Shown in pieces: positions 1 to 32,917 of a stretch of DNA of 33,838 bases. A program made the position numbers and the translations under genes. Positions within the stretch are counted from its first letter, which is position 1. Each line of letters opens with the position of its first letter. The notes under the pieces were generated by a model. It ran no database searches and was not told the DNA's origin. It saw only the letters and a program-made list of their open reading frames with translations. The stretch is from Candidatus Nomurabacteria bacterium GW2011_GWE2_34_25 (lineage in GTDB: Bacteria; Patescibacteriota; Minisyncoccia; Phycocordibacterales; UBA9973): contig LBPS01000006.1 of the NCBI GenBank assembly GCA_000990325.1, positions 1-33,838 on the forward strand. Reading direction: 5' to 3'.

Positions 1-60
1 GAGTCAATTCTTTATTATCTTTACGATAAAGGAGTGGCTCCTGGGCCTTTTGGCTTTTAG
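1..60 (+). CDS. 3' end of a gene cut by the window edge
   Basis: Frame 1 is open from the first base to a TAG at 58-60 and encodes 19 residues ending in GVAPGPFGF. It is too short to assign to a family. It would converge with the original tRNA-Lys transcription unit, whose terminator lies at 339-386. Whether it is a real coding end cannot be decided from 19 codons. Confidence 0.3.
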   Translation, partial: ESILYYLYDKGVAPGPFGF

Positions 61-338
61 GAACGAAAGAACATGTGAAGCACTATATAAAAACTGTGCC
101 CACTGTAATGTACAAATCAGTGATAAATTTTCAGTCTCTATCAAGAGAAAACAAATCAATCTTTTGACTCGTGTACATTATACACGAAAAACGGGGAAAA
201 CAAAATGTTTTAGGGTAGGACCGCGAGTACGCTTATCGAACCTTACAGGTTCAGTACACCTTTTCCATTCGCGAGTACCCTCATATGGAAAAGGTTTTCG
301 CTTCCTACACGCTTCGTCCTCAAGGACGAAACTCGAGA
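61..338. other. non-coding stretch with structured tRNA-downstream element, copy A
   Basis: I see no convincing gene here. The right part (252-338) is one copy of a structured element also found at 22035-22116. It has a hairpin with 10-bp arms (259-268 with 285-294), a conserved linker around 295-311 reading TTTTCGCTTCCTACACGC, and a second small hairpin (TTCGTCC/GGACGAA, 313-330). Next come the bases CTCGAGAGG, which complete the terminator palindrome. The octamer GCGAGTAC occurs twice (about 223 and 270). A TATAAT on the minus strand (177-182) sits in a small dyad near 169-185, but no ORF follows it. Confidence 0.6.
252..338 (-). repeat. tRNA-associated structured repeat, copy A
   Basis: Shares CAGTAYACCTTTTC and GAAAAGSTTTTCGCTTCCTR plus CACGC with copy B (22035-22116). 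The interiors of both hairpins differ in sequence but keep their base pairing. Both copies lie directly beyond the terminator hairpin of a tRNA gene (tRNA-Lys before the element inserted; tRNA-Arg for copy B), in the same orientation relative to the tRNA. Confidence 0.7.
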
Positions 339-386
339 GGACAATATTAAAAAACCTTAATTTCTTAAGGTTTTTTAATATTGTCC
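334..386 (-). terminator. displaced tRNA-Lys terminator hairpin
   Basis: A perfect 22-bp inverted repeat (339-360 with 365-386) with a 4-nt loop. The left arm continues outward as CGAGAG (334-339), which has no partner here because the element junction interrupts the right arm after ATTGTCC. The missing TCTCG lies at 11071-11075, inside tRNA-Lys. Before integration the arms would have been 27 bp and included the tRNA 3' strand. Confidence 0.85.
380..386 (+). repeat. left attachment-site core (ATTGTCC)
   Basis: A 7-bp direct repeat with 11064-11070. The bases on either side differ between the two copies (t/c before, c/t after), so the shared core is exactly 7 bp. A short shared core fits a large serine recombinase, which crosses over within a 2-bp overlap. 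Confidence 0.8.
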
Positions 387-494
387 CCAGAACAGGAGAT
401 TATTATAAATATTTTCTCCGATCGTTCTTATATGGAAAGTCTATACAATAAGCTACTTTTTATCAAGGCTTTGCAGAAAGAAGTTATAAAATAG
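387..494 (+). other. left end of element: open frame that would extend the recombinase in the circular form
   Basis: The recombinase reading frame reaches the attachment core in phase (codon TCC, 11068-11070). In an excised circle the next base is 387. The frame then stays open for 35 codons (starting PEQEII, ending KEVIK) to TAG at 492-494. In the integrated form this stretch has no start codon or partner gene of its own. That it is translated is an inference. Confidence 0.5.
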
Positions 495-510
495 TTATTT
501 TTATGATTAA

Positions 511-2436
511 TTAACTTTCTTTAACCTCGATTAAAAGTTTAGAATAAATTTTATTTTTGAAATATTTAAATATTTCAAATCTAAATTTATTTAAAAGAAT
601 ACAGACACCTGTTGTGAGACTACCTCCAAACAGAGCAGAAAATACAGAAAAAACAGCGATTGACAATCTAAAGTAGAGTTTGTAAAAAATTAAACTTTCT
701 ACAATAAAAAATATTAAAATTGAAAAAATAAATAAACTAATCGATATTACATATGCCCATTTTCTTGCCATATTATCTAAACCACCCTTTACTGCAATAA
801 TTTTTTCATTATATTTTTGAATTTCTTTATCTTTTTCTGATTCAACGGTAAATAGTCTTTCTTTTGTATTTAAAAAACTTTTTGCATTCTCTTTTTCTTT
901 TTCGGAAAGAGAGACATTTGCTTCTTCAATCGCATCTATTATTAAATTACTATTTATTTTGTCTAAATTACTACGATCATATCCTGTCAAAATTCCATCT
1001 ATATTTCTATGATAGAATAAATTTTCTATTTGCTCAGTATTAATAGTATTATTTTTTTTCAATCTATCAAGTTCATTGTAAAACTTTTCCCAAACTTTTC
1101 TATCTATAAGTAAATCTCTTGAATGTGTAGCAATTATATTACTTAATGGAATTTCTATGTTTGGATTTTTAAGCCACAATATATTTGCAAATACTCTATC
1201 TAATATAACTTCGGAAAGTGTTCCGTTGTCTTTATGACCAAAATAAAATATTACTTTCTTTTGCAAAGCAAAATCAGATGTTAAAAAGAAAGCTTCAGAA
1301 TCTTCAATTCTTCTAACTGTCTTTTTTCTTATTTCTCTAATCTTATCAATCGCCGCGATATCATGATTTGTGCTTAAACCATTAAAGTCGTTCGTTTTTA
1401 TTTGTGAAATTTCTTTTTGTAATTTTTCATTTTTTATAGATAAATAATTATTTAAATCAACATCTGTAAAAAATATTTCTATACCTAAACTCTCGACTTT
1501 TTCTTCTATTGTATAAATAAAATCTGTTATATCTGATGATTCAAAATTTTGTTTTTTTAATATACTATAGATATGATCTACGGGAATAGATTCAGGGTAT
1601 TGATTTTTTACTTTTATGTAACCATTCATTACCCTACATATTTCATTTAAAGTAAAATCAAAAACTCTTAACTTAAAACCCATGTTTTTTATTAAATCAA
1701 ATAGTTCTCTTGAGGCTATGTTTTTTTCGTTTGAGTGTAAATTAAGAAGTGAAAAAATAAAATTGGAATCAAAAAATATAAACCCCCTTTTAATTTTTTT
1801 TGATTCAAGATCAACAATATCACTAGAACTTTCGGAATATAACAATGAGGATAATATTGAGCCTAATACAATTTCTTTGAATTGATTATATTCTGATGGT
1901 TTAGATTGTTTTATGTCTTTAAGAAATAAAACGATTAATGCTCCATCTTTTCTATTAATGCGGTCGTTTAAATTTTCTGAAGTTTGTTTTGGATTAATAA
2001 AATCAATTACACCTTCTATATTATCTTGTATAAAGGATTCAATTAATTCCCTTGTTTCATCTTGGCTAATTTTTCTTTCATTGGTATTAAAATAATCTGA
2101 AACAGCCAAGAGAAAAGAATTATTCCTTCTTTCAACATCTTCTATTGATTCAAGCTCATTAATAAAATCTTTACCTTTTTGTATTATTTTTAAGAAATTA
2201 CTATCTTTTTGAGTTTCCACATATCCTTTATTTTTTATTCTAGAGAATATCGTTTTTAAAATATGTATAGGTATATCTATTTTATATTTAGTAGAAATTT
2301 TTAATTTAACAGACTCAACTCCTTCAAAAGATGAATCACTTAAGATACTTAATACTAGTGGAGATAGGGTATCAAAATAATCTTTATTTTGGTCAAACAG
2401 TGTTTTTATTAAAGCATAAGTATGAAGTTTGGTCAT
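511..2436 (-). CDS. PIN-like nuclease domain protein with C-terminal membrane anchor
   Basis: 641 residues. Residues 1-95 look like a winged-helix-type helical region. Residues 218-400 resemble a PIN fold: hydrophobic strand then D223 (FFDSN), E265 (LNEI), D359/D364 and D388 (LTSD). PIN domains are usually metal-dependent RNases. A charged helical region (about 500-555) precedes two predicted membrane helices (about 561-585 and 590-615), so the catalytic part would face the cytoplasm. It starts 21 nt after the stop of the BglII-like nuclease gene and has no good promoter of its own, so the two are probably one operon. I do not recognise this architecture as a named family. It could be an effector or backup of the R-M system, or an unrelated toxin-like protein. 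The PIN call rests on motif spacing only. Confidence 0.6.
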   Translation of the reverse strand: MTKLHTYALIKTLFDQNKDYFDTLSPLVLSILSDSSFEGVESVKLKISTKYKIDIPIHILKTIFSRIKNKGYVETQKDSNFLKIIQKGKDFINELESIEDVERRNNSFLLAVSDYFNTNERKISQDETRELIESFIQDNIEGVIDFINPKQTSENLNDRINRKDGALIVLFLKDIKQSKPSEYNQFKEIVLGSILSSLLYSESSSDIVDLESKKIKRGFIFFDSNFIFSLLNLHSNEKNIASRELFDLIKNMGFKLRVFDFTLNEICRVMNGYIKVKNQYPESIPVDHIYSILKKQNFESSDITDFIYTIEEKVESLGIEIFFTDVDLNNYLSIKNEKLQKEISQIKTNDFNGLSTNHDIAAIDKIREIRKKTVRRIEDSEAFFLTSDFALQKKVIFYFGHKDNGTLSEVILDRVFANILWLKNPNIEIPLSNIIATHSRDLLIDRKVWEKFYNELDRLKKNNTINTEQIENLFYHRNIDGILTGYDRSNLDKINSNLIIDAIEEANVSLSEKEKENAKSFLNTKERLFTVESEKDKEIQKYNEKIIAVKGGLDNMARKWAYVISISLFIFSILIFFIVESLIFYKLYFRLSIAVFSVFSALFGGSLTTGVCILLNKFRFEIFKYFKNKIYSKLLIEVKES

Positions 2437-2457
2437 GTTTATTCTGTTTGATTTTGC

Positions 2458-3066
2458 TTATAAACGAACTATTTCTCCTATATTTCTATTTCCTACTCTG
2501 TTTTTTACCATTTTAAAAGTTTCTGGTGCCTCTAATCCTATAATAACCATGGGCACTGTTAAAATTCTATCCAATGGTATTAAATATCTACAAATTTTTT
2601 CAAATTCACCAACAGCACTATCAAAAGCACCTGCCCTTTTTAGTTTACTTGTAGCACAAATAAGGACAGCTACTTCTGTTTGTATTGCTTTTTGGACATG
2701 ATTTAACTCACCTGCTAAAACAGGTTTAATTAAATTCCATGCTATTGCTTCTCCATGATTAAATGCAACTTCTATAGAAATTTTATCTTTAGCAAAATCT
2801 AATCTCCACTTACTTTCCTTAAAACCTTCATCTTGAAAAATTGGGGACTCTTTAGACCATCCAACTGCAGACAAACGATCTTTAATTAAATCATTAATGG
2901 CATAAGAAAGACTCATTTTTCCTGCATATTTTAAATTATGCTTATCTATAATGTCTTGGTCAGAAATATTAGTTATTGCAGTTTTAATTTCTTCAAAAAG
3001 ACCTGAATATCGGGCTTCTGCTAGTATAATGTCTCCTTGTTTGTGTGATTTGGTGGTGAAATTCAT
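2458..3066 (-). CDS. type II restriction endonuclease, BglII/BstYI-like
   Basis: 202 residues from the chosen ATG. The core WRLDFAKDKISIEVAF has D90 and E99 nine residues apart (numbered from this start), the same spacing as D84/E93 of BglII, followed by V-A where BglII has V-Q. This fits the PD-(D/E)XK nucleases that cut sequences centred on GATC. The gene diverges from a C5 cytosine methyltransferase 73 bp away, which supports a restriction role. I chose the start at 3066 because a TTGATC / 17-bp / TTTAAT promoter on this strand ends 7 nt upstream, giving a leaderless mRNA. An in-frame ATG at 3087 lies upstream of where that transcript would begin. The exact recognition sequence cannot be read from the protein. 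Confidence 0.8.
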   Translation of the reverse strand: MNFTTKSHKQGDIILAEARYSGLFEEIKTAITNISDQDIIDKHNLKYAGKMSLSYAINDLIKDRLSAVGWSKESPIFQDEGFKESKWRLDFAKDKISIEVAFNHGEAIAWNLIKPVLAGELNHVQKAIQTEVAVLICATSKLKRAGAFDSAVGEFEKICRYLIPLDRILTVPMVIIGLEAPETFKMVKNRVGNRNIGEIVRL

Positions 3067-3139
3067 AATTTTTATTAAACAATACATTTAATGGTAGATC
3101 AAGGTTGATCAATTGTCAATTAGGTGCTATTATTTAGGT
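3067..3139. promoter_or_regulatory. divergent R-M promoters sharing a GATC palindrome
   Basis: Plus strand: -35 TTGATC (3105-3110), 17-bp spacer, -10 TATTAT (3128-3133), start codon at 3140. Minus strand: -35 TTGATC (revcomp of 3097-3102), 17-bp spacer, -10 TTTAAT, start codon at 3066. The two -35 boxes form one palindrome, GATCAA-GG-TTGATC (3097-3110), so any protein or methyl mark on it would affect both genes. Both messages are predicted to be leaderless. Confidence 0.75.
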
Positions 3140-4405
3140 ATGGTAAAACCAAAGAAATCTATATTAAAAGTTGCTGAATTGTTTGCAGGTGTTGGAGGTT
3201 TTCGTATTGGACTTGATAGAGCAAGTAAGAAAGATTCGGGTTATATCACAGTATGGAATAACCAATGGGAACCAGCGACAAAAAAACAACATGCCTCAGA
3301 AACTTATATTGCTAGGTTTGGAGAAGAAGGACACTCTAATGTTGATATAGCTAAAGTTAAGACGAATGAAATTCCTAACCACGATTTATTAGTAGGGGGT
3401 TTTCCATGCCAAGACTATTCAGTTGCAAGAAATTTAGGAAGTTCTAATGGTATTATTGGTAAAAAAGGTGTTCTTTGGTGGGAAATTCATAGAATATTAA
3501 AAGAAAAAGGTAAAAATGCCCCTTCTTATTTAATGTTAGAAAACGTTGATAGATTATTAAAGTCTCCTGCTTTACAAAGAGGTAGAGATTTTGCAATGAT
3601 TATTTCTTCTTTAAATGATTTAGATTATATTGTTGAGTGGAGAGTCATAAACGCCGCAGATTATGGAATGCCACAAAGAAGGAGAAGAACTTTTATTATG
3701 GGATATAAAAAAGGAACTTCTATTTATAATAAAATATTTAAACTTAATAATCATTCTGATTGGATAAAGAAAGGAGGAGTAATTTCTTCTGCTTTTCCTG
3801 TTTTGCAAACAAAAGAAATACCATCCGAATTTACAATAGTTGGAGACTTACCAAAGATAAGTGAAACTTTTAATAAAGAGAATCCTACAAAAACTCTTTT
3901 TGCTAACTCAGGTATCTCAATTAAAAGAAAAATTTATACACTGGCAACTACCCCAAATTATGAAGGAGAAAGAACTACACTAAAAGATATAATAATAGAC
4001 GAAAAAGATGTTCCTCAAGAATTTTTTATTAAAAAAGAAGATTTACCAAAATGGGAATATTTAAAAGGAGCCAAAAGTGATAAAAGAACAACAGCTAGTG
4101 GATTTTCTTTTGTTTATACAGAAGGAGCAATGGTATTCCCTGATTCTCTTGATAAGCCTTCTCGAACTATTATAACAGCAGAAGGTGGTTCTACTCCATC
4201 TCGTTTTAAACATGTAATAAAAACACCTTCTGGAAAGTTAAGGAGACTTACTCCAGTAGAATTAGAAAAATTATGCATGTTTCCTCCCAATCATACAGTT
4301 GGTCAACCTGACGTAAAAAGAGCCTTTTTTATGGGCAACGCCTTAGTTGTAGGAGTTATAGAAAAACTTGGTAAATCATTAAAAAAACAGATTGATTTAA
4401 ATTAA
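3140..4405 (+). CDS. DNA (cytosine-5) methyltransferase of the R-M system
   Basis: 421 residues. Motif I VAELFAGVGGF (AdoMet binding) lies near the N-terminus, motif IV GGFPCQDYS holds the catalytic Cys (about C90), motif VI is ENV (about 134-136), motif VIII is QRRRR (about 179-183) and motif X is GNALVVGVIEKL at the end. All main C5 motifs are present in the usual order and the length is typical. The target-recognition region between VIII and X determines specificity and should match that of the neighbouring BglII-like nuclease. A TTG at 3113 would add nine residues, but the promoter places the transcript start at the ATG of 3140. The gene ends 1 nt from the convergent RNase H-fold gene. 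Confidence 0.93.
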   Translation: MVKPKKSILKVAELFAGVGGFRIGLDRASKKDSGYITVWNNQWEPATKKQHASETYIARFGEEGHSNVDIAKVKTNEIPNHDLLVGGFPCQDYSVARNLGSSNGIIGKKGVLWWEIHRILKEKGKNAPSYLMLENVDRLLKSPALQRGRDFAMIISSLNDLDYIVEWRVINAADYGMPQRRRRTFIMGYKKGTSIYNKIFKLNNHSDWIKKGGVISSAFPVLQTKEIPSEFTIVGDLPKISETFNKENPTKTLFANSGISIKRKIYTLATTPNYEGERTTLKDIIIDEKDVPQEFFIKKEDLPKWEYLKGAKSDKRTTASGFSFVYTEGAMVFPDSLDKPSRTIITAEGGSTPSRFKHVIKTPSGKLRRLTPVELEKLCMFPPNHTVGQPDVKRAFFMGNALVVGVIEKLGKSLKKQIDLN

Positions 4406-4406
4406 T

Positions 4407-5219
4407 TTATTTTTTTGCCACTTCTTTTACAAGTTTTATTTCAATATGATGTGAGTATATCTTAGTTATATTAATTTTATATGTATGGGAACGATGTAAT
4501 TCATTTTTTAAGGTAGGAGAAACATACGCTTTTACAATACCACCATGTAAATATTCTGAGCATATTTCAAAACAAACCTCTACTTGTTTTCCTACTGTTT
4601 CCCATGCATAAACACGAGCTTCGATCTCACCCAGTTTTAATTTAGGATAAAATACTTCCTTACCGTCATAAAATCTTTTTGTTACAGATCTTTGTTTTTT
4701 ATTTGCTAATGTTGAACCTTTTACCCCTATCTTTTTAGCTGTTTTTGACAATTTATCAGCAACCTTATTTTTCTTTTCTCTTTCATAACTTATTGAAATT
4801 TGACCGCCTATTATTTGTGATAGTTTTGTTCTTGTCTTATCTAATTTATCAAGTAAATCTTTATCTTTAATAGCCTTACCTTCATAATTAAGCCAATTAT
4901 TTTTTCTCCAATCTTTTATCCAATATGGATTAACAAGTTTTGTAACACTAATCCTATCTGTATATAATTCTACACCAGAAGACTGCCTTACTAATTTAGA
5001 ATTATCTTTTGCAAATAACAATAACGCATTCATAGCTTCAATAAGGCTAATTATTTCTAGTCTGTGTATTCCTTGTCCATCATTTCTAATCGAACGAGAT
5101 ATTGGTTCAATATTAAAAGAGTCTGGAAATTCTATAAAGAAACCATTTCCTCCAGTATTTCCCTTGTCATAATCCATTGCTCCATCACAATGAATTTGTA
5201 TTGCATGTGGGTTAGCCAT
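4407..5219 (-). CDS. RNase H-fold protein with C-terminal extension
   Basis: 270 residues. The N-terminal half fits RNase HI: IHCDGA (D12), HRLEIISLIEA (E55), ELYTDR (D88) and KVADKLSK (D155), the four acidic residues that bind two metals and cut the RNA strand of RNA-DNA hybrids. The stretch with WIKDWRKNNW matches the substrate-handling segment of RNase HI. Residues after about 170 form a basic, beta-rich extension I do not recognise. A TATAAC -10 box (5227-5232) ends 7 nt before the ATG, so transcription is probably leaderless. It may serve element replication or a defence role; the sequence does not decide between these. Confidence 0.7.
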   Translation of the reverse strand: MANPHAIQIHCDGAMDYDKGNTGGNGFFIEFPDSFNIEPISRSIRNDGQGIHRLEIISLIEAMNALLLFAKDNSKLVRQSSGVELYTDRISVTKLVNPYWIKDWRKNNWLNYEGKAIKDKDLLDKLDKTRTKLSQIIGGQISISYEREKKNKVADKLSKTAKKIGVKGSTLANKKQRSVTKRFYDGKEVFYPKLKLGEIEARVYAWETVGKQVEVCFEICSEYLHGGIVKAYVSPTLKNELHRSHTYKINITKIYSHHIEIKLVKEVAKK

Positions 5220-5268
5220 ATGTGTTGTTATATCACAAACAACAACTTTTAACGACTAAGTTTTATGT

Positions 5269-5307
5269 AAAACAGCGATTATCTGCGACTAAAATGCAAT
5301 TTACATA
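5269..5307 (-). repeat. 39-bp promoter-proximal repeat, copy 1
   Basis: 31 of 39 bases match 5905-5943. Both copies share GCGATTAT, AATGC and ATTTACA and lie 49 and 69 nt upstream of the start codons of the genes at 5219 and 5835, in the same orientation. Here the element is also framed by ATGTAAA and TTTACAT. It may be a shared operator. Confidence 0.5.
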
Positions 5308-5334
5308 ACAATATTAGGTTATTTTTCAAGATCC

Positions 5335-5835
5335 CTATAATAATTGCTCTAAATTCTTATAATATTTTTCCATTTTTGTTTCCCAATTTTGGGGATAATA
5401 CAATTTATCGCTACCTTTTAGTCTTATTGGTAAATATCTTACATTTGATACCCCATGTTTTTTATTATTTTTTCCTAGTGTATTTCTCCATTTATCATGA
5501 CCTTCTCTAAGAAGAGGGCAAACTATATTACTTGGAATAACCCAAAAATCTGGTTCTCTTTCAAATTCATTCAATTTTACAAAAATATAATAGAAGTCAT
5601 CTGATTGTCCTGTTTCGTCTTTAATAGATAAAATAAAACCATTTGTATTTTCAACCTCTTTCGTCTTTATAGATATCTTTGATAATTTTCCTTTTGGGCT
5701 AAGTGTTAGAATATCATATTTTTCAGCTCTACCAAGGGTTATTGTCGCTACAAAATTAAGAGCAGATAATCTCGAAGCTATGTAATACTCCCCAGCATTT
5801 CCTATATTTTGCTTTTGTGTTTTTTGTTTAGCCAT
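5335..5835 (-). CDS. PD-(D/E)XK nuclease-like protein
   Basis: 166 residues. GNAGEYYIASRLSAL (E16 in the first helix), then KYDIL (D41) and ISIKTK (K57/K59), give the E...D...xK layout of the restriction-endonuclease fold, like small resolvase-like and DUF4365-like proteins. The acidic residue usually found two before the catalytic Lys is replaced by S55, so activity is uncertain. A TATAAT -10 box lies 10 nt upstream of the ATG, predicting a 5' leader of only a few bases. A 39-bp repeat upstream is shared with the RNase H-fold gene, suggesting common control. Confidence 0.55.
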   Translation of the reverse strand: MAKQKTQKQNIGNAGEYYIASRLSALNFVATITLGRAEKYDILTLSPKGKLSKISIKTKEVENTNGFILSIKDETGQSDDFYYIFVKLNEFEREPDFWVIPSNIVCPLLREGHDKWRNTLGKNNKKHGVSNVRYLPIRLKGSDKLYYPQNWETKMEKYYKNLEQLL

Positions 5836-5904
5836 ATGTCTCTACATTATACCTTATATTGTAATTTAGCCTATAAACCCTAATAAGTTCCATTAAGTCC
5901 ACAC

Positions 5905-5943
5905 AAAAAAGCGATTATATGCTAAGACAATGCGATTTACACA
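5905..5943 (-). repeat. 39-bp promoter-proximal repeat, copy 2
   Basis: Partner of 5269-5307. The gap around it (5836-6080) otherwise holds only a weak 47-codon ORF (5930-6073, plus strand) with no homology that I recognise. Confidence 0.5.
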
Positions 5944-6080
5944 GCGAAAACAGCAGACCATACAGAAACCATCGATATTAAGAAATATGAGCAAGACAAG
6001 CGATGTTTTGCGAGAATCATATGAAATGACATATTTAGGACGGGTAACATTTTTGAAGATAATTTATAATTAAGATATTA

Positions 6081-6518
6081 ATGACAAAAGATACAGAAAA
6101 ATTTAATGATGAACAAAACACAATAACTGGGCAACCTCCAGTTAATACTGGTGTTTTAAGAGATGAGTTTGGAAAAATTCTTCCTGGTTCTAAATCTTTA
6201 AATCCTAACGGAGCACCAAAAGGAAAGAAGCACTTATCTACATTACTTAGACAAGCACTTGAAAAACAGAGTGATATAGAAATTGATGGCAAATATATTA
6301 CTTATGCCGAAGCTATCATTTCTAATTTATTAAAGATAGCGACTAAAGCTCCCGACAGAGAAGCTATTAAGGGTATTGCCGAAGTGTTTGATAGAGATGA
6401 GGGGAAAGCTAGGGGATCACTTAATATTGACCCAGACAATGAAGTTGAGGGCATAGATATAACAATAGTTCACACAGATACAGTCAGTTATAACAGAAAA
6501 CTAAATAATCAAAAATAG
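6081..6518 (+). CDS. DUF5681-like protein
   Basis: 145 residues. LNPNGAPKGKKHLSTLLRQAL matches the N-terminal signature of DUF5681 (NPNGxPKG... followed by a helix), found in phage and mobile-element proteins and often next to terminase genes; its function is not established. The rest is acidic and helical, and the tail (IDITIVHTDT) may be a strand. A TATAAT (6065-6070) lies 10 nt before the start. The gene converges with the LITAF-like gene 16 nt away. No terminase large subunit is present, so a packaging role is not supported here. Confidence 0.6.
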   Translation: MTKDTEKFNDEQNTITGQPPVNTGVLRDEFGKILPGSKSLNPNGAPKGKKHLSTLLRQALEKQSDIEIDGKYITYAEAIISNLLKIATKAPDREAIKGIAEVFDRDEGKARGSLNIDPDNEVEGIDITIVHTDTVSYNRKLNNQK

Positions 6519-6534
6519 ATACTTGAATTATCCA

Positions 6535-6912
6535 TCAGTAGGCAAGTTTAGAAAGAATAACAATTAACAATGCAAAGGCTAAAAAGATACCAAGACCAAT
6601 CATTACTCTTTTCCTTATTTTTATTTCTTCCTTTTTTCCTTCCTCTTGTTTTTTATTTATCTTATCTATTTCTTCTTGAGGTAATTCTTCCTTAACCATT
6701 TTTTGAGCTTTGGGCGAATCCAATGGAATCATATTTTGATTTTTACATTTTGGGCAAACTTGATATCTTGAAGAAGACCTCCATACTGAATAAATTAAAC
6801 CCGGAATAATAAAGAGTAACCATAAAACTATTTCTACTCCCATGTTTCCTTTTATCGCTGTTTCTGTTTTACCTATGTAACCACATTGTGTGCAAGCTAA
6901 TATTTTAGACAT
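6535..6912 (-). CDS. LITAF-like zinc-ribbon membrane protein
   Basis: 125 residues. CTQCG near the N-terminus and CPKC near residue 53 flank a hydrophobic segment (about 27-45, VLWLLFIIPGLIYSVW). This is the arrangement of LITAF-type domains, in which two CxxC halves form one zinc site and the hydrophobic part inserts into the membrane. A Lys/Glu-rich helix follows, then a second membrane segment at the C-terminus (about 103-122). This is the only complete gene in the window that I found to end in TGA. It lies just downstream of the structured RNA candidate at 6940-7115, on the same strand. Confidence 0.55.
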   Translation of the reverse strand: MSKILACTQCGYIGKTETAIKGNMGVEIVLWLLFIIPGLIYSVWRSSSRYQVCPKCKNQNMIPLDSPKAQKMVKEELPQEEIDKINKKQEEGKKEEIKIRKRVMIGLGIFLAFALLIVILSKLAY

Positions 6913-6939
6913 ATATTTAGATAGATTAAATATTAATTA

Positions 6940-7115
6940 TGTGGTGGAACATAAAAAGCCCACCACATAGGTAGAGACCGAAGCCTCTCATATCCGTTTC
7001 CAGATACGGCAGATCGTGCAACCCCATGATGATGGGTTCTTTATGCACGATCTGACTTACTTTCACCATGCCTTTATTCCTAAAGGTTTAGGCTACTTTC
7101 CACATATTAAATTAT
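6940..7115 (-). ncRNA. structured RNA candidate or long leader of the downstream gene
   Basis: A gap of about 300 bases rich in compensated pairing. On the minus strand a TATAAT (7122-7127) could start a transcript near 7115. From 5' to 3' it would hold: CCTAAA/TTTAGG or the alternative CCTTT/AAAGG; an 11-bp stem CAGATCGTGCA/TGCACGATCTG (7010-7020 with 7044-7054) capped by an AACCC/GGGTT hairpin; a six-base stem AGAGGC/GUCUCU with a UUCG tetraloop; and a 10-bp stem TATGTGGTGG/CCACCACATA (about 6939-6970). A UUCG loop closed by C-G forms only in minus-strand RNA. I do not recognise a known family. It may be a stand-alone RNA or a regulatory leader of the gene starting at 6912. Confidence 0.5.
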
Positions 7116-7219
7116 GCTGTAATTATACCAACTTTAGTGTAAAATAGGAACTATAAGCTAGTTTTTAGTTTTTTATCTACTATATAGGGTAAAAAGCTGA
7201 AAACTAAAATATTTATATT

Positions 7220-7927
7220 ATGACTAAAAATAACATAGAAAATATACTTTCTAGCTATACTGAAAGTGATATAGAAAAAATAAAAACTATTTTGGAAGTA
7301 ATTGATATTAGGTTATCTATCAATAACAAGCCATATATCATATATATTCCCTTTATAGATTTCCCTAATAGTCTTAACAGATTTGAAATAATTGATTTAT
7401 TGCATAAATTAGACAAAGAGTTAGGAGTAATAAAATTTACTCAAATTACAGATGGTCAAAAGATTGCAGAACAAGAGGTTTGCATTAGAATTACAGATGA
7501 TAAAGAAAAATTTAATACATTAATACAAATTATTAATAAAAAATATAAAAATAATAAAATTATAAAAAAGAAAGAGCAACCAGTTTCCTTACCAACATTA
7601 TGGTTGGCAAAAAAAGATGATGGAAATTATTACTATGATGGAAATCGTTTTTATATAAAAAATAAAAAAACAAAATACACTATTATTTTAGATGTAATTT
7701 ATTCATTAAAACCAGAAGGTGGAAAAGTTGAATATAAAAAAATAATAGAACTTTGTAAAAAAAGAGGAAAAAATATAAACAAAAAGTCTATTCTTAGAGC
7801 ATTAACTGGGAAAGATGCAACTTTATTTAGATATATAAAAGAAATAAAACAAAAATTACCATACGATATGGATTTGTTTGTTGCAATGCAAGATGGTAAA
7901 GAAATAGAATTTAATAATAAAAAATAA
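7220..7927 (+). CDS. unknown protein, lysine-rich
   Basis: 235 residues with no family I recognise. The N-terminal half (1-115) alternates strands and helices. A Lys/Asn-rich linker (about 108-122) leads to a C-terminal region (about 145-205) with DVIYSLKPEGGKVEYKKIIE and KKSILRALTG, which could be a winged-helix or other small DNA-binding module. It is followed by a good terminator (7946-7976). Position between the RNA candidate and the replication-type ATPase suggests an element maintenance function, but this is only context. Confidence 0.55.
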   Translation: MTKNNIENILSSYTESDIEKIKTILEVIDIRLSINNKPYIIYIPFIDFPNSLNRFEIIDLLHKLDKELGVIKFTQITDGQKIAEQEVCIRITDDKEKFNTLIQIINKKYKNNKIIKKKEQPVSLPTLWLAKKDDGNYYYDGNRFYIKNKKTKYTIILDVIYSLKPEGGKVEYKKIIELCKKRGKNINKKSILRALTGKDATLFRYIKEIKQKLPYDMDLFVAMQDGKEIEFNNKK

Positions 7928-7945
7928 TTTCTCGTGAATTCTCTT

Positions 7946-7976
7946 AAAACTAGTATAAAAATACTGGTTTTTTCTT
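7946..7976 (+). terminator. intrinsic terminator
   Basis: Stem AAAACTAGTAT (7946-7956) with ATACTGGTTTT (7961-7971), one G-U pair and an AAAA loop, followed by a T-run. It ends the gene at 7220-7927. Confidence 0.75.
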
Positions 7977-8029
7977 TTAGTAATAAGCCATATTTGGATA
8001 AGGGAGAAATAAAGAGAAATACTAGGATA

Positions 8030-8057
8030 CACACATAAATTTTATAATTTATGTGTG
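8030..8057. promoter_or_regulatory. palindrome containing a -10 box
   Basis: Perfect 12-bp inverted repeat (8030-8041 with 8046-8057, 4-nt loop) with TATAAT at 8043-8048 in its centre. A GTG start codon follows 6 nt after the -10 box. A repressor on this dyad would block the promoter of the small ORF and of the replication-type ATPase behind it. Confidence 0.55.
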
Positions 8058-8192
8058 GAAGAAAAAAATAAAAATGAAATAGGAGAAAAAACTATTGAGC
8101 AATTTGCTCTTATTTTAGTCGCACTTATTGATGAAATCCATACTCCTAAAGACAAAGACTCGAAATCTTATTTTGAGGAAATTAAAAATTAA
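8055..8192 (+). CDS. small ORF, 45 residues, GTG start
   Basis: Begins VEEKNKNEIGEKTIEQFALI and continues LVALIDEIHT, an acidic helical peptide. The GTG lies exactly 6 nt after TATAAT, the same geometry as many genes in this window, which supports a leaderless start. It ends 14 nt before the ATPase gene, so they could be co-transcribed. The frame is open upstream to 8010, so it could also be the remnant of a longer gene. Confidence 0.4.
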   Translation: MEEKNKNEIGEKTIEQFALILVALIDEIHTPKDKDSKSYFEEIKN

Positions 8193-8206
8193 ACACCAAA
8201 ATCAAT

Positions 8207-9469
8207 ATGAATATAGAAGAAATATTAGTAAAAAATAAAATAGTTTTTGAGGACATGGGTGATTATATAGCAACTTATTGTCCTTTCTGTGATAAATCGT
8301 ATGCAGGATATGATACAGCCACTCTTAATATAGATATGAGAACAGGTTATGTAAATTGTTCAGCTTGTAAGAAAGGTTTTAAAGTTGAAGATGTTTTAGA
8401 AAAATTAGGAATTAATATAATAGAAAAATCTTCTACAACAGAATTAATAAAAATAAATAAAGATGACTCTAAGGATATTGATTATAAAGGGTCTAGTCTT
8501 ATTAGTGTTAAAGACATATTAGCATTAAATTTTGATCCACAAGAGTGGCTTATCGAAAATTTAATACCACTTGAAGGGACTGCTGTAATTTCGGGGAGCC
8601 CAGGTAATTATAAAAGTTGGCTTACTCAAGATATTGCTAGGTGTGTTGCTCTTGGCACAGATTTTTTAGAAAACTTTAAGGTAAAACAAGGGTCTGTTTT
8701 AGTGGTTGATAGAGAAAATCATTTACGGTTAGTAAAAGAACGCATAAAGAAACTTAAAATTCCAGAAGATGCAACAATTCAATATTTTAAAAGTGATGAT
8801 TTTGGAATTGATAATAAAAAATGTTTTGACGATCTCATTTCAAAAATAACTCAATTTAATATAAAACTGGTGATATTTGATTCATTAGTTAGAATACATT
8901 CGGGTGATGAAAATGACGCAAAACAAATGTCTAAAGTATTACAACAATTTACAAAAATCAATAAACTGGGGGCTACTGTTATATTTGTTCATCATCATCG
9001 AAAAGAAAATGGTTATCAAAAAAGTTCAGGTCAAAGCTTAAGAGGTTCATCAGATATATTAGCTTTTGTTGATACTGCTTTTGTTGTTAAAAAAGGGAAA
9101 GAAAAAGGGTGTATTACCATGGAAACCTTAAAACTCCGACAAGCTACTGAATTAGAACCATTTAATATAGATATAATCGAGGATGAAGAATTTATAGGTT
9201 TTAAGTATTCTGGGGTATTTAATTCTTCTAAAGAACAAACAGAAGAAGCCAAAGAAGCCATATTAGAGATATTAGAAGGTAAAAAAACTGTCTTCAATCA
9301 AGATTTTGAGGATGCCTTAAAAGACACTTATAAAAAATCTATAATAAAGATAGCCTTAAAAGAGCTTGAGATATCAGAAATAATTATTAGGAAGAAAGAG
9401 GCACATAATAAACACTCTTTTTGTCTTAAAGAAGACGGAGTCATAACTCGGGTTGATGAAAATAACTAA
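8207..9469 (+). CDS. zinc-finger / RepA-type (AAA_25) ATPase
   Basis: 420 residues. The N-terminus has a CHC2/primase-like zinc ribbon: CPFC (25-28) and CSAC (51-54). The middle is a RecA/DnaB-like ATPase of the RepA type: Walker A GSPGNYKS (130-137), Walker B LVIFD (221-225), sensor-like VHHHRK (261-266) and a GSSD motif near 280. The C-terminus (about 335-415) looks like a winged helix. Such proteins unwind DNA or load helicase at plasmid and phage origins; a zinc ribbon in front recalls primase-helicase fusions, but no TOPRIM catalytic domain is visible. This is the likely replication protein of the element. Confidence 0.8.
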   Translation: MNIEEILVKNKIVFEDMGDYIATYCPFCDKSYAGYDTATLNIDMRTGYVNCSACKKGFKVEDVLEKLGINIIEKSSTTELIKINKDDSKDIDYKGSSLISVKDILALNFDPQEWLIENLIPLEGTAVISGSPGNYKSWLTQDIARCVALGTDFLENFKVKQGSVLVVDRENHLRLVKERIKKLKIPEDATIQYFKSDDFGIDNKKCFDDLISKITQFNIKLVIFDSLVRIHSGDENDAKQMSKVLQQFTKINKLGATVIFVHHHRKENGYQKSSGQSLRGSSDILAFVDTAFVVKKGKEKGCITMETLKLRQATELEPFNIDIIEDEEFIGFKYSGVFNSSKEQTEEAKEAILEILEGKKTVFNQDFEDALKDTYKKSIIKIALKELEISEIIIRKKEAHNKHSFCLKEDGVITRVDENN

Positions 9470-9472
9470 AGA

Positions 9473-9493
9473 TATGATAATTAAAATATCATA
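9473..9493. promoter_or_regulatory. recombinase promoter inside an inverted repeat
   Basis: TATGATA (9473-9479) and TATCATA (9487-9493) are inverted with a 7-nt spacer. TATCAT (9487-9492) is the likely -10 box and ends 6 nt before the recombinase ATG at 9499. The dyad could be an operator for a repressor of the recombinase. Confidence 0.45.
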
Positions 9494-9498
9494 ATTAT

Positions 9499-11079
9499 AT
9501 GAACAAAGAAAAAGAAGAAATAAAGAAAAAAATAGCAGTAATTTATTGTAGGGTTAGCACTCAAGACCAAGCAGATAAAGGTTTGTCTATTGAAGAACAA
9601 GAAAGATTATGTAAAGAAAAAGCCGAACAAGCAGGCTATTCTATCTTGGCAATAATTAAAGATGAAGGGAAAAGTGGTGGAAGTTTGAAAAGAGCAGGAA
9701 TGCAACAATTAATGAAGCTCTCAATTGAGAAGAAAATTGATGCCGTATTTACTGTTCATAGTGATAGAATCGCTCGTAATACAGAAAACTATCTTTATTT
9801 AAGAGCTTTGTTTCGCAACAATGATGTTGAATTGTTTTTTATTCAATTACCCAATTTAGATGATTCAGCGGGTTCAAAAATGATGGACTCAATGTTTGCT
9901 ATTGTAAATCAATATCAAAGAGATATAACTTCTGATAAGGTAACTATGACAATGGAGGGAAAAGCGAGGTTAGGATATTTTCCTGCACTTGCTCCACTTG
10001 GATATAAAAATATAACAAGACTAGACCCGACAGTTGAAAGAGCTGGTCAGAAAATTGTGGTTAAAGATCCAGAAGTAGCACCCCTTGTTAAAAAAGGATT
10101 TGAGCTTTATGCTACAGGAAATTTTAGTGTCTACGATATAACAGATATTCTATATGAAAAAGGATTAAGAACTAAATATGGAAAAAAGTTAACTTATAGC
10201 AGATTGTATGATGTTCTTAGAAATCCTTTTTATATCGGAGAAGTTCATTGGGGTAAGGTTCATTTAAAAGAAGGTAAGCATGAACACTTAATGGATAAAG
10301 AATTATTTTATTCAGTTCAAAGATTATTAACAATGAAAAACGGACATCTTTGTAGGAGAAGAAAGTATCAATGGTTATTAAGTGGTTTTCTTAGGTGTCA
10401 TACTCATCAATGCAGATATACAGCAGAATATCATTTAAACAAGAGAATAGGCTATTATCATTGCACCAATAGAAATGGTTGTGGAAAATATGTAGAAGTT
10501 AATAAATTGGAAAGTATGATTGAAGATAAATTTAAAGAGATTGAATTTAGTCAGAAATTTATTGACTTAGTCATTGAAAAGGTTAAAAGTGTATTTTATG
10601 AAAGAAGAAAGCTTTATGACGACAAAAGAAAATCACTTATAAATCAAAAGACAGTTTTTGAGTTAAAAAGAAAGTCAGCCGAGGATAAGCTTTTAGCTAA
10701 TGTGATTACAGATGATGATTTTAGAAGAATAAAAGAAGAAATAAACGAAGAATTAGAAAGTCTTAATAAAAGGACGATTGAACTTGAAAAAGAAAGAAGA
10801 ATAAATATGGATGTCGCCCAAGAAGTATTAAATCTTTCAAGAAATATTTATGATACATATTCAAAGGCACCACATAACCTAAAAAGACATCTTTTAGCAT
10901 TCTTTTGGGAGAAATTTGAGATAAAAGATGAAGTTATAATAAAATCCTATCCGTCCCTACTTTTTGCTGAACTTTTGAAGTTAGAACAAGCATTTTACAA
11001 AAAACCAAATAGAGAAAATCCTTATGAATCAAAAGGATTTTCTACTATTATAAATTCTACTGCATTGTCCTCTCGGTAG
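9499..11079 (+). CDS. large serine recombinase (integrase of the element)
   Basis: 526 residues. Resolvase catalytic domain (11-155): YCRVSTQDQ with R18 and nucleophile S20, and HSDRIARN with R90/R93. Recombinase domain about 160-275. Zinc ribbon with C300, C305, C322 and C328. Coiled coil about 365-440. These are the hallmarks of phage-type large serine integrases, which join attP to attB with a 2-bp overlap. The last codons TCC TCT CGG TAG lie within the tRNA-Lys gene on the other strand, so the attachment core is inside the coding region and the last two residues are host-encoded. In the excised circle the same frame would run 35 codons further (387-494). Confidence 0.95.
   Translation: MNKEKEEIKKKIAVIYCRVSTQDQADKGLSIEEQERLCKEKAEQAGYSILAIIKDEGKSGGSLKRAGMQQLMKLSIEKKIDAVFTVHSDRIARNTENYLYLRALFRNNDVELFFIQLPNLDDSAGSKMMDSMFAIVNQYQRDITSDKVTMTMEGKARLGYFPALAPLGYKNITRLDPTVERAGQKIVVKDPEVAPLVKKGFELYATGNFSVYDITDILYEKGLRTKYGKKLTYSRLYDVLRNPFYIGEVHWGKVHLKEGKHEHLMDKELFYSVQRLLTMKNGHLCRRRKYQWLLSGFLRCHTHQCRYTAEYHLNKRIGYYHCTNRNGCGKYVEVNKLESMIEDKFKEIEFSQKFIDLVIEKVKSVFYERRKLYDDKRKSLINQKTVFELKRKSAEDKLLANVITDDDFRRIKEEINEELESLNKRTIELEKERRINMDVAQEVLNLSRNIYDTYSKAPHNLKRHLLAFFWEKFEIKDEVIIKSYPSLLFAELLKLEQAFYKKPNRENPYESKGFSTIINSTALSSR
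11048..11070 (+). repeat. right attachment-site core and half dyad
   Basis: ATTGTCC at 11064-11070 matches 380-386. TTATAAATTCTACTG (11048-11062) is a near inverted copy of CAGGAGATTATTATAA (393-408), with one extra base and two changes. In the circle these would flank the core as an imperfect dyad, as expected for an attP bound by an integrase dimer. Confidence 0.7.
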
Positions 11080-11140
11080 GAATCGAACCTACGACCATCT
11101 CCTTAAAAGGGAGCTGCTCTACCAACTGAGCTACGAGAGG
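11068..11140 (-). tRNA. tRNA-Lys(UUU)
   Basis: 73 nt. Acceptor CCTCTCG/CGAGAGG, anticodon loop CTTTTAA with anticodon TTT, T-loop TTCGATT; the discriminator is A and CCA is not encoded. It is the integration target: the element joins at its 3' end, and its original terminator now lies about 10.7 kb away at 339-386. The whole mature tRNA is preserved. Confidence 0.95.
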
Positions 11141-11217
11141 ATACGTTGATATAACTATACACAAAAGTACCATATTTTAACTATAAAATCAACATAATTA
11201 TAAGAGACTAATGACTG

Positions 11218-11226
11218 TGATATAAT
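11218..11226 (+). promoter_or_regulatory. extended -10 promoter, leaderless
   Basis: TGATATAAT with the last T 6 nt before the ATG at 11233. The identical nonamer occurs at 13845-13853 and 32131-32139. Confidence 0.7.
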
Positions 11227-11232
11227 CTAATT

Positions 11233-11754
11233 ATGAAAATATATTTTGCACCACATTCAACAAGTTTTGATAATGAAGCTAAGTTAGCATCTGGCTGGAA
11301 AGATGTTGAATTGTCTCCACTTGGAATAGAGCAATCCAAAGAACTCGCCGAAAGATTTAAGGGTATAAATATTGACTTGATTTGTTGTTCTGACTTAAAG
11401 AGAGCTGTTGATACTGTCAGAATAGCTTTTGGCGATACTATACCAATAATAGTAGATAAGAGATTAAGGGAACTTAATTATGGAGATTTTGATGGTAAAT
11501 CAAAAGAATTAGTTTGGTCAATGAGGCCTAATGCTATTAAAATACCATTTCCAAATGGAGAAAGTTATGATCAAGCAATGATAAGGGTTCACGAGTTCTA
11601 TAATGAATTGAAAGAAAAATATTCTGATAAAACAGTCTTGGTTGTTGGACATCGTGCCACACACTACGGACTAGATACACTGACTGGAAAAACACTAGAA
11701 GAATGTTTATCCCTAGAGTTCAAATGGCAACCTTATTGGGAGTATGATTTGTAA
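11233..11754 (+). CDS. histidine phosphatase-family protein with altered RHG motif
   Basis: 173 residues, the usual size for single-domain phosphoglycerate-mutase-like phosphatases. The phosphate-binding motif, normally RHG, reads FAPHSTS, so His8 remains but the preceding Arg is Pro. CSDLKRAVDTV matches the second Arg region (SxLxRAxxTA), LRELNYGDFDGK the general acid region, and VVGHRATH near the C-terminus supplies the second catalytic His. Loss of the first Arg usually weakens activity, so it may have changed substrate. Family subtype (sugar phosphate, nucleotide, alpha-ribazole-like) cannot be assigned. Not part of an operon; transcribed away from tRNA-Lys. Confidence 0.8.
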   Translation: MKIYFAPHSTSFDNEAKLASGWKDVELSPLGIEQSKELAERFKGINIDLICCSDLKRAVDTVRIAFGDTIPIIVDKRLRELNYGDFDGKSKELVWSMRPNAIKIPFPNGESYDQAMIRVHEFYNELKEKYSDKTVLVVGHRATHYGLDTLTGKTLEECLSLEFKWQPYWEYDL

Positions 11755-13859: not shown

Positions 13860-15605
13860 ATGAATTCAGAAACCAAGAATTGTCAGAATTGTAAGGAAGA
13901 CTTCATAATAGAGCAAGATGATTTTTCATTTTATGAGAAAATGAAAGTCCCGCCCCCTACTTTTTGTCCTGAATGTCGATTGATTCGCAGGATGGCGACT
14001 TTTAATGTTCGTAATATATATAACCGAAAGTGTGATAATTGTGGCGAAAACACTGTTTCCATATTTAATCCAAAAGCCCCATACAAAAATTGGTGTTTTA
14101 AGTGTTACTTCTCTGATAAATTTGATCCATCTTTATATGGAATTGATTACGACTTTTCCACTAACTTTTTTACTCAATATGAAAAATTAAGGAGAAATGT
14201 TCCGTTGCTTTGCTTAGAACAATCAGGTAACAATAGTGGTGGATGTGAATATGCTAATTATACCTATAGTAGTAAGAATATTTATCTTTCTCATAATGTT
14301 GCCAGTTCAGAAGATGTCTACTATTCAGTATTTGTAAATAAGAAAAATAGAATGTGTTTTGACTCTCTTAGTTTTAAAGAAGATGAACTTTGCTATGAAG
14401 TCGTAGACTCAAATCATAGTTATGACTGTTCATATCTAACACGATCGGATTCATGCATAAGCTCTTCCTTCCTTTTTAATTGTTCAAACTGCCAGAATTG
14501 CTTCATGTCTTCGAATCAACAGAAACAGAATTATATTTTTAGAAACAAGAAACTCTCAAAGAGTGAATATGAAGAAGCTATTACAAAAGAGAATTTACAC
14601 TCTTATGATTTATGGAAAAAGCTAGTTGAGGAATACGGTAAATTAATGAAAGATTCAATAGTTTGCTTTTCTAAACAGATAAACGCAATCGATTGCACTG
14701 GGGATATTATTGAAAATTCTAAAAATTGTTGGTCCTCTTTTTATATTTGGAAATCAGAAAATATTAAATATGTCACTTATTCAGTTAATTCTGTGACCGA
14801 TTCTTATGACATACTAGATTCTGGGAGGGGAGAAAGAATGTATGAATCAATATGTAGTGGGAGAGGGAATTATGAGATTACCTTCTCTTCTCGTGTTTTC
14901 GGGTCTACATACTCATACTATAGTGAGGGATGTATTGATTGTAAAAACATTTTTGGCTGTGTTGGATTAAAGAAGAAGCAGTATTGTATTCTAAATAAAC
15001 AATATACAAAGGAAGAATATGAAGAAATCTTGCCTAAAATAATTAAACATATGGAAGAGATGCCATATGTCGATAAAAATAACTGCAAATACGTTTTTGG
15101 TGAATTTTTCCCCATAGAGATTTCTCCTTTTGCATATAATGAAACAATGGCTTATGAACAATTCCCATTATCAAAAGAGAAAGCTCTTGCAAAGAATTAC
15201 AAATGGTTTGACGATTTAGATAGAGACCATAAATCTACATTAGAATATACAAATATTCCAGATGATATTTCTGATGTAGCAGATTCAATTTTGAAAGAGA
15301 CTATTAGCTGTGAACATGGAGGGTCCTGCAATCATCAATGCACAAAAGCATTTCGTATTGCTCCAGAAGAATTACAATTCTATAAACGCATGAATCTATC
15401 TCTTCCAAGAATTTGCCCAAACTGTCGTTATTTTATAAGATTAAAAAGGGCTCTGCCATGGAAGTTGTGGTCCAGGGTTTGTATGTGTAGTAAAGATAGC
15501 CATGACCACACAGGAAAATGTGATGTTCAATTTAAGACTCCCTATTCTCCTGATAGACCAGAGACAATTTACTGTAAAAAGTGCTTTCAAAAAGAGGTTT
15601 ATTAA
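13860..15605 (+). CDS. Cys-rich multi-zinc-ribbon protein, paralogue 1
   Basis: 581 residues. The N-terminus has CQNC...CPEC (about 9-40) then CDNC...CFKC (about 58-82), two treble-clef or ribbon type zinc sites. The middle (about 120-390) is a long series of short repeats rich in Asn, Ser, Tyr and Cys with patterns such as CSNCQNCF and CIDCKNIFGCVGLKKKQYC, suggestive of a stacked beta-strand solenoid carrying metal sites. The C-terminus repeats the first module (ISCEH...CTKAFRI...CPNCR) and ends in a final C...CxxC. I know this architecture as a frequent uncharacterised CPR protein. The first and last modules share FxIxPEELxFYKRMxLxLPxxCPxCR-like sequence. Function unknown; cytoplasmic, as no signal peptide is visible. 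Confidence 0.8.
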   Translation: MNSETKNCQNCKEDFIIEQDDFSFYEKMKVPPPTFCPECRLIRRMATFNVRNIYNRKCDNCGENTVSIFNPKAPYKNWCFKCYFSDKFDPSLYGIDYDFSTNFFTQYEKLRRNVPLLCLEQSGNNSGGCEYANYTYSSKNIYLSHNVASSEDVYYSVFVNKKNRMCFDSLSFKEDELCYEVVDSNHSYDCSYLTRSDSCISSSFLFNCSNCQNCFMSSNQQKQNYIFRNKKLSKSEYEEAITKENLHSYDLWKKLVEEYGKLMKDSIVCFSKQINAIDCTGDIIENSKNCWSSFYIWKSENIKYVTYSVNSVTDSYDILDSGRGERMYESICSGRGNYEITFSSRVFGSTYSYYSEGCIDCKNIFGCVGLKKKQYCILNKQYTKEEYEEILPKIIKHMEEMPYVDKNNCKYVFGEFFPIEISPFAYNETMAYEQFPLSKEKALAKNYKWFDDLDRDHKSTLEYTNIPDDISDVADSILKETISCEHGGSCNHQCTKAFRIAPEELQFYKRMNLSLPRICPNCRYFIRLKRALPWKLWSRVCMCSKDSHDHTGKCDVQFKTPYSPDRPETIYCKKCFQKEVY

Positions 15606-15622
15606 TAATATTAAAAGATAAT

Positions 15623-32145: not shown

Positions 32146-32820
32146 ATGGGGAAGAGAGGACAAACACCACAAGGAAAAGTGGACATAAGATGGTCGGCAA
32201 ATTTTGCTTATGCCATTGGTCTTTTGGTTACAGATGGAAATTTATCATCTGATGGTCGGCATATTATTTTTGTTTCTAAGGACATGGAACAAATCAATAA
32301 TTTTTTGAAATGTTTAAAAATAGACGTAAAAATAGGAAAAACAATTTCTGGATATGATGGTAATTTCTCTCATAGGGTGCAATTAGGTGATGTCATATTT
32401 TATAAGTTTTTAGAATCTATAGGTATTAAGGCAAAAAAATCTAGGACCATAGGGAATATTTTAGTTGATAAAAAATATTTTTTTGATTATCTAAGGGGTT
32501 GTTTTGATGGAGACGGATGTTTTTATTCCTATTGGGACCCAAGATGGCGTTCAAGTCATATGTTTTATTTAGAATTTACTTCAGCAAGTTTTGATCATAT
32601 TATTTGGCTTCAAGATGAAATAAAAAAATATGCCAAGGTTAATGGGCATATTTCTGGAAGGAAAAAGAAAGATTTCTTTCAGTTAAAATATGCAAAAAAA
32701 GAAGCCATGGAAATAATTAAAAAAATGTATTATAATAAGAAAGTTGTTTGTTTATCTAGAAAAAAGATTAAAATAGAAAAAGCTTTGAAAATAGAGGAAA
32801 AACAGCAAAAGCAGTATTAA
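32146..32820 (+). CDS. free-standing LAGLIDADG homing endonuclease
   Basis: 224 residues. Two LAGLIDADG motifs: FAYAIGLLVTDGNLS (about 20-34, D30) and YLRGCFDGDGCFY (about 115-127, D121), one at the start of each pseudo-symmetric half, so it can act as a monomer. Homing endonucleases of this class cut long asymmetric sites and are usually in introns or inteins. Here the gene stands alone with its own leaderless promoter, 12 nt upstream of an intact tRNA-Leu, with no intron around it. Confidence 0.9.
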   Translation: MGKRGQTPQGKVDIRWSANFAYAIGLLVTDGNLSSDGRHIIFVSKDMEQINNFLKCLKIDVKIGKTISGYDGNFSHRVQLGDVIFYKFLESIGIKAKKSRTIGNILVDKKYFFDYLRGCFDGDGCFYSYWDPRWRSSHMFYLEFTSASFDHIIWLQDEIKKYAKVNGHISGRKKKDFFQLKYAKKEAMEIIKKMYYNKKVVCLSRKKIKIEKALKIEEKQQKQY

Positions 32821-32832
32821 AATAATATATAT

Positions 32833-32913
32833 GCGCGGGTGCTGTAATAGTAGCCAGGCACGCTTGAGGTGCGTGTGTCGTAAGACGTGGAGGTGCGATT
32901 CCTCTCCCGCGCA
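32833..32913 (+). tRNA. tRNA-Leu(GAG), atypical elbow
   Basis: 81 nt. Acceptor GCGCGGG/CCCGCGC, anticodon loop TTGAGGT (anticodon GAG), long variable arm, discriminator A. The D-loop (TAATAGTAGC) lacks the G18-G19 pair and the T-loop reads TGCGATT with G at position 55 instead of U, so both halves of the standard D-loop/T-loop contact are changed. Confidence 0.85.
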
Positions 32914-32917
32914 CTGA

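Follow-up and report, generated by a model that had tools for sequence, protein, structure and literature searches.

Strand exchange is a well-known means of control in bacterial leaders: preQ1 and SAM-II riboswitches and ribosomal leaders mask the ribosome-binding site in this way. The LOOT RNA examined here resembles these systems in its predicted leader position, its putative pseudoknot and, in a subset of copies, potential mutually exclusive pairings beside the start codon. It differs from them in that it precedes unrelated genes, that the potential masking strand varies from copy to copy, and that no ligand is known. Phage "morons" and island cargo offer a second point of comparison, each being one accessory gene that has its own promoter and lies close to an integrase gene. 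LOOT cargo likewise consists of single accessory genes near a recombinase, one of which matches a superinfection immunity family. To our knowledge, a shared structured leader on unrelated cargo does not belong to the usual description of morons.

LOOT was reportedly introduced in a 2017 discovery paper by Weinberg et al. Rfam assigns the family the type "Gene; sRNA", and a passage on Rfam 15 records that two covarying pairs were added to it (PMC11701678). The family has been listed in Rfam for years, and the literature passages that mention LOOT give no function for it.

The window, that is, the whole stretch of DNA analysed, comprises 33,838 nucleotides of contig LBPS01000006.1 from Candidatus Nomurabacteria bacterium GW2011_GWE2_34_25. 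A cmscan search identified one feature of immediate concern:

6973-7094, minus strand: LOOT RNA core, defined by Rfam RF03000 (cmscan) and by alignment

The match covers model positions 1-121 and scores 73.9 bits against a gathering cut-off of 46.4 (E 2.6e-12); LOOT is the sole non-tRNA Rfam family in the window at gathering scores. This minus-strand region is a real structured RNA and a full-length member of the LOOT family. A sequence-only reading of the same DNA had proposed an unrecognised structured RNA, with several stems, borne by a mobile element and read from the minus strand. The stems, the strand and the element were all borne out, and the RNA proved to be a recognised one. Two of the checks which that reading had named, an Rfam search and covariation among homologues, yielded respectively the full-length minus-strand match and covarying pairs in helices P1-P4 and in a long-range helix, including in independent sequences.

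Folding the minus strand of 6930-7125 gave -66.9 kcal/mol (z -5.5), a value equalled by 0 of 200 shuffles. The plus strand is nearly equal (z -5.5), so that fold energy alone cannot pick the strand. The assignment to the minus strand follows from the Rfam match and from conserved G-U pairs, which would be A-C on the opposite strand; at one pair of the long-range helix, U-G occurs in 42 of the 48 copies of alignment A1.

Our survey of this genome and its relatives revealed 49 LOOT matches in 30 of 61 genomes. LOOT was also present in 64 of 286 sampled genomes of the phylum and in 0 of 14 control genomes, and a pattern scan of GTDB returned 71 loci, 70 of them LOOT by the model. Loci carrying a group label are nearly all from Patescibacteria, with one labelled Bacteroidetes. 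Alignment A1 holds 48 sequences, the lowest scoring of the 49 copies having been left out. Of the 71 model rows, five were dropped (four cut-off matches and a weak antisense one), and 118 copies less 12 duplicates gave 106 distinct copies. The phylum set of 38 was obtained from 42 rows by removing one weak antisense match and three duplicates; its source was 40 stretches from the best-scoring part of the match table of the 286-genome sample. Overall, 144 distinct copies were compared, many of them related, and counts of sequences are therefore not counts of independent events. The window's own genome carries a second LOOT copy (G000:C1:22008-22133, equal to L001 1501-1626), which is followed by a short gene for a membrane protein and lies about 2 kb from a serine recombinase. 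Another genome of the phylum carries two tandem LOOT RNAs about 200 nt apart (L258 199-377 and 575-735).

Within the core, the four helices of the Rfam model were located as follows, all read from the minus strand:

7065-7093, minus strand: P1, with internal loop CCUAA(A)...CAUGG (7092-7088 / 7070-7066) and hairpin 7086-7071; CCTAA in 46 of 49 copies, [TC]ATGG in 44 of 49
7010-7054, minus strand: P2, a variable stem of 10-11 bp, arm A 7054-7045 with A' 7019-7010; apical hairpin 7036-7034 / 7024-7022
6989-7008, minus strand: P3, hairpin with GAAA tetraloop (7000-6997); GAAA in 49 of 49 copies, pairs 99.7%
6973-6988, minus strand: P4, hairpin with a UUCG loop in this copy; changes on both sides at 5 of 5 pairs

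The 11-bp stem of the sequence-only reading is P2, and its UUCG hairpin is P4, a helix whose loop varies across the copies of A1. P2 shows changes on both sides at 9 of its 10 pairs in A1, where it is under-counted, probably through MAFFT misaligning the variable arm; its three-pair apical hairpin is paired in 90.3% of cells. The Rfam-like structure as a whole is paired in 89.2% of cells (0 of 500 shuffles). When the long-range helix is included, 92.3% of 2135 cells are paired in the 48 copies, a structure that not one of 500 shuffles equalled on any of the five measures.

The P1 internal loop, CCUAA...AUGG, resembles the 11-nt GAAA tetraloop receptor, for which a passage of PMC11381326 gives the consensus CCUAAG/UAUGG, and the GAAA tetraloop of P3 is invariant. 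The variant UACGG, listed in the same passage (PMC11381326), is matched by LOOT copies reading CACGG. One difference concerns the G.U pair of the classical receptor, in place of which LOOT has A.C or C.U. The receptor-like motif of P1 and the GAAA tetraloop of P3 are absent from the Rfam model. We infer from these motifs that the P3 loop may dock in the P1 receptor.

Beyond the Rfam model, the alignment revealed a long-range helix, whose strands we call B and B'':

7029-7043, minus strand: B, 5' strand of the long-range helix, UAAAGAACCCAUCAU, 14 bp with 6966-6952
6952-6966, minus strand: B'', 3' strand of the long-range helix, GUGGUGGGCUUUUUA, adjoining the Rfam model outside its 3' end

The helix pairs A1 columns 84-98 with 174-188, and its 14 pairs are formed in 99.3% of 671 cells. 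Both sides have changed at 9 pairs, in 97 cells, a result reached by 0 of 500 shuffles; sliding the strands by one to three columns leaves only 44-52% of cells paired. As the helix was discovered on A1, it was retested on 57 sequences outside A1, where 97.0% of 755 cells are paired and 9 of the 14 pairs have changed on both sides (0 of 500 shuffles). In the phylum set, 35 of 38 copies reach a helix score of at least 30, against 12.7% with partners swapped. B has two partners, namely B', in the apical hairpin of the Rfam model, and B''. The predicted helix B:B'' crosses P2 and would form a pseudoknot where both helices coexist.

A further strand competes with B downstream of the core:

6938-6947, minus strand: strand C, CCACCACAUA, 10 bp with UAUGUGGUGG (6969-6960); rivals B for B''

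The pairing of 6969-6960 with 6947-6938 is the 10-bp end stem of the earlier reading and lies outside the Rfam model. That model ends at P4 and contains neither the 3' strand of the long-range helix nor strand C. Strand C pairs with the front of B'' in 33 of 105 leaders at a score of at least 20, against 6.0 expected, and the window ranks second among them. Two alternative folds had been foreseen for this region: B and C do compete for 6966-6952, but the proposed TATGTGG/CCACATA pairing is not the conserved one, being particular to this copy, with a 5' strand that is not conserved in A1.

Other leaders carry pairings that reach the start codon itself. A copy of the P2 5' arm, with an identity of at least 9 nt, occurs in 20 of 126 leaders (swapped loci 0.56%), and 19 of these 20 copies end within 7 nt of the ATG; the P2 3' arm could thus cover the start region. 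A pairing of the end UUUUUGCG with ACGCAAAA ahead of the ATG is possible in roughly a dozen leaders. When the 30 nt before the ATG were compared with LOOT, 24 of 72 leaders gave a helix score of at least 22 (swapped 8.2%, shuffled 4.4%), a number that comprises both the P2-arm copies and the UUUUUGCG/ACGCAAAA pairings; the remaining 48 of 72 have no such helix. B:B'' is therefore conserved throughout, whereas B'':C and the start-region helices exceed chance and are confined to a subset. The window copy has no P2-arm copy before its ATG, only the B:B'' and B'':C pairings are present, and the C hairpin ends 25 nt before the ATG, so that the window shows no direct masking of its start codon.

The gene behind the RNA, and the leader that would connect the two, are given by the following features:

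6912-7115, minus strand: predicted 5' leader of about 204 nt, running from a putative transcription start around 7115 as far as the start codon (6912)
6535-6912, minus strand: cargo gene for a 125-aa LITAF/Pmp3-like zinc-ribbon membrane protein; weak Pfam Pmp3 and zf-LITAF-like matches, both below cut-off

On the strength of its pairings and position, we consider it fairly likely that the LOOT leader of the LITAF/Pmp3-like gene is a cis-acting RNA switch for island cargo genes, in which the mutually exclusive pairings would constitute the switch. The P3 GAAA loop, docked in the P1 receptor, would hold the pseudoknot together. In the folded state, the strands that could mask the start region would be occupied and the gene translated; in the unfolded state, the freed strands would take the start region or C as their partner, leaving the gene silent. 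In the window copy, the switching strand would be B'' (6966-6952), common to B and to the C hairpin. Folding order would favour B:B'' first, because C is transcribed last. Nearest-neighbour energies for this copy are about -6 kcal/mol for the apical hairpin and -15.5 kcal/mol for the C hairpin, against -14.0 kcal/mol for B:B''. These energies favour the fold without the pseudoknot, so that the pseudoknot would depend on tertiary contacts or on a kinetic advantage. With cargo of such diversity, no one signal stands out as a candidate.

Control by the LOOT leader probably operates at the level of translation. We prefer this reading on two grounds: in a subset of leaders the exchange extends to the start codon, and the U tract is dispensable. 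The main rival is transcription attenuation, in which B'' and the U tract would end a terminator that involves either B or a small hairpin nearby, and polymerase would read through in the alternative fold. TTTTT stands behind the helix in 105 of 144 leaders. A weak terminator-like hairpin, TCTACC-TATGT-GGTGGG-CTTTTT, lies at 6975-6959 on the minus strand, and the two strands of the region hold three terminator-like sites against 0.1 expected. Against this, TTTTT is missing in 39 of the 144 leaders, and a G+C hairpin followed directly by a U tract, as in intrinsic terminators, was not found family-wide. The long-range helix is kept in 34 of these 39 leaders against 11.8% with partners swapped, which indicates that the pairing is conserved rather than the U tract. 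Furthermore, the U's themselves lie in a helix paired in 97-99% of cells, and the local hairpin offers just three conserved pairs at 82%. We regard attenuation as unlikely.

Both translational control and attenuation place LOOT in front of a gene, and its genomic position agrees. In 92 of 106 distinct copies, the pseudoknot strand is followed at a distance of 7-62 nt by a same-strand ORF (ATG, at least 45 codons), compared with an ORF within 62 nt in just 12 of 106 in the divergent direction. Within 260 nt downstream, an ATG ORF is found in 99 of 106, and for 3 of the remaining 7 the sequence ends within 76 nt. The phylum set likewise has a same-strand start codon within 62 nt in 33 of 38 copies. 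It is strongly supported by these positions that LOOT is a 5' leader and not a free RNA, and the sequence-only proposal of a leader ahead of the LITAF-like gene gains the same support. An upstream ORF beginning at the invariant AUG of the receptor loop was considered and rejected as unconvincing, since it is open for at least 30 codons in 43 of 126 copies against 18 and 31 in the other frames.

A candidate promoter element precedes the leader:

7122-7127, minus strand: -10-like TATAAT, from sequence and from its spacing in relatives

This is the promoter-like TATAAT of the earlier reading, present at 7127-7122; the window scan found no acceptable -35 for it. The conserved 5' motif of the leader, ACAACTTAATA, is matched at 9 or more of its 11 letters in 41 of 49 copies, and the best TATAAT-like match lies 12-14 nt before it in 31 of 49, a set that includes this genome's own. 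A -10 scan over a wide stretch succeeded in 92 of 100 copies compared with 63% of shuffles and is weak evidence in AT-rich DNA; the fixed spacing of 12-14 nt is better evidence. The window copy deviates from the conserved motif ACAACTnAATA, for which no pairing partner was found (for example at L034 5873-5886, minus strand).

The -10-like site also bears on a free-standing sRNA, which would be transcribed alone, end at the U tract and act in trans, its neighbouring gene being there by chance or as a target. The Rfam type "Gene; sRNA" and the U tract in 105 of 144 copies would fit such an RNA. The same-strand start codon within 62 nt in 92 of 106 and 33 of 38 copies speaks against it, as do the P2-arm copies in the start region, which match their own leader and not others. 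A stand-alone sRNA is disfavoured by this genomic position, and we judge it quite improbable. The structure itself agrees with RF03000 in P1-P4, whereas the position says leader where Rfam says sRNA; Rfam's description of the family lacks the leader role as well as the long-range helix and the competing strands.

Analysis of the genes around LOOT pointed to an island context. In the window, the cargo gene shares its surroundings with the following:

9499-11079, plus strand: large serine recombinase of the island; Pfam Resolvase and Recombinase, PHROG integrase 1.1e-85

A large serine recombinase occurs in the flanks of 34 of 49 LOOT copies, compared with 0 of 20 control stretches, which together are a quarter as long. 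The commonest families among 120 neighbour ORFs are recombinases (12) and DNA methyltransferases (8), and terminase and head-protease families also occur; these ORFs were taken from 381, by drawing 140 at random and removing 20, many of them long, by hand. Resolvase accounts for 12 of the 120; the 25 families listed for 120 control ORFs do not include it and are mainly housekeeping. These controls are 120 of 133 ORFs (at most 830 aa) from the starts of arbitrarily chosen contigs, several of them short, and are not strictly random. The 50,697 phage and 72,556 plasmid records searched contained no LOOT match, and an association with phages was rejected, as the model recognised only 3 of the 39 pattern loci in viral contigs as LOOT. 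Given so few viral loci and the lack of phage or plasmid matches, we speak of islands despite the terminase and head-protease neighbours. In the window, the 3' end of the serine recombinase gene overlaps an opposite-strand tRNA-Lys by about 12 bases (9499-11140), which suggests the island's integration site; a search of 1-11400 for a second attachment repeat or direct repeats produced none that was convincing.

It is very improbable that LOOT serves the mobile element's own cycle as a DNA or RNA component (a recombination site, or a replication or packaging RNA) rather than a gene-control element, for although a serine recombinase is nearby in 34 of 49 copies and most copies precede different cargo, the G-U pairs, the GAAA tetraloop in 49 of 49 copies and the receptor motif point to RNA, tight start-codon spacing is unexpected for such a role, and the 50,697 phage and 72,556 plasmid records gave 0 matches.

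The downstream proteins are short, with a median of 171.5 aa among 92, and 64 contain a membrane-like segment by a simple hydropathy rule. Their families are diverse, comprising DUF4352, T5orf172, bacterial PH, Pmp3, zinc ribbons and a superinfection immunity protein. In 197 genomes, the three closest LITAF-like homologues, the window's protein itself included, all lie behind LOOT, and four distant ones do not. An enrichment of defence genes in the cargo was considered and discarded: PADLOC matches exist, but the 120 control ORFs likewise match many PADLOC models.

We infer that the LOOT family may act as a portable control element for accessory genes carried by integrative islands of the ultra-small Patescibacteria. 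More tentatively, it is possible that a phylum-wide portable switch stands before unrelated genes and operates through exchange between several strands of the pseudoknotted leader, with the P2 stem as an "address" of which one arm is, in many copies, duplicated at the start codon, stem and target co-evolving. The duplicated P2 arm provides a built-in test by compensatory mutation. The leader role, the defined pseudoknot, the likely tertiary contact and the competing strands would together give LOOT a testable role. If right, a very large and hardly culturable bacterial phylum would possess a common means of controlling mobile cargo, and LOOT would flag island cargo genes that easily escape notice otherwise.

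The window also contains other gene arrangements of interest. At 2458-4405, a BglII-like restriction endonuclease is divergent from a C5 cytosine methyltransferase, forming an island-borne restriction-modification pair. At 13860-17371, slightly overlapping reading frames encode, in tandem, a pair of related cysteine-rich proteins, each of about 590 aa. Finally, at 32146-32914, a 224-aa ORF, which we take to resemble a homing endonuclease, lies directly before a tRNA-Leu gene.
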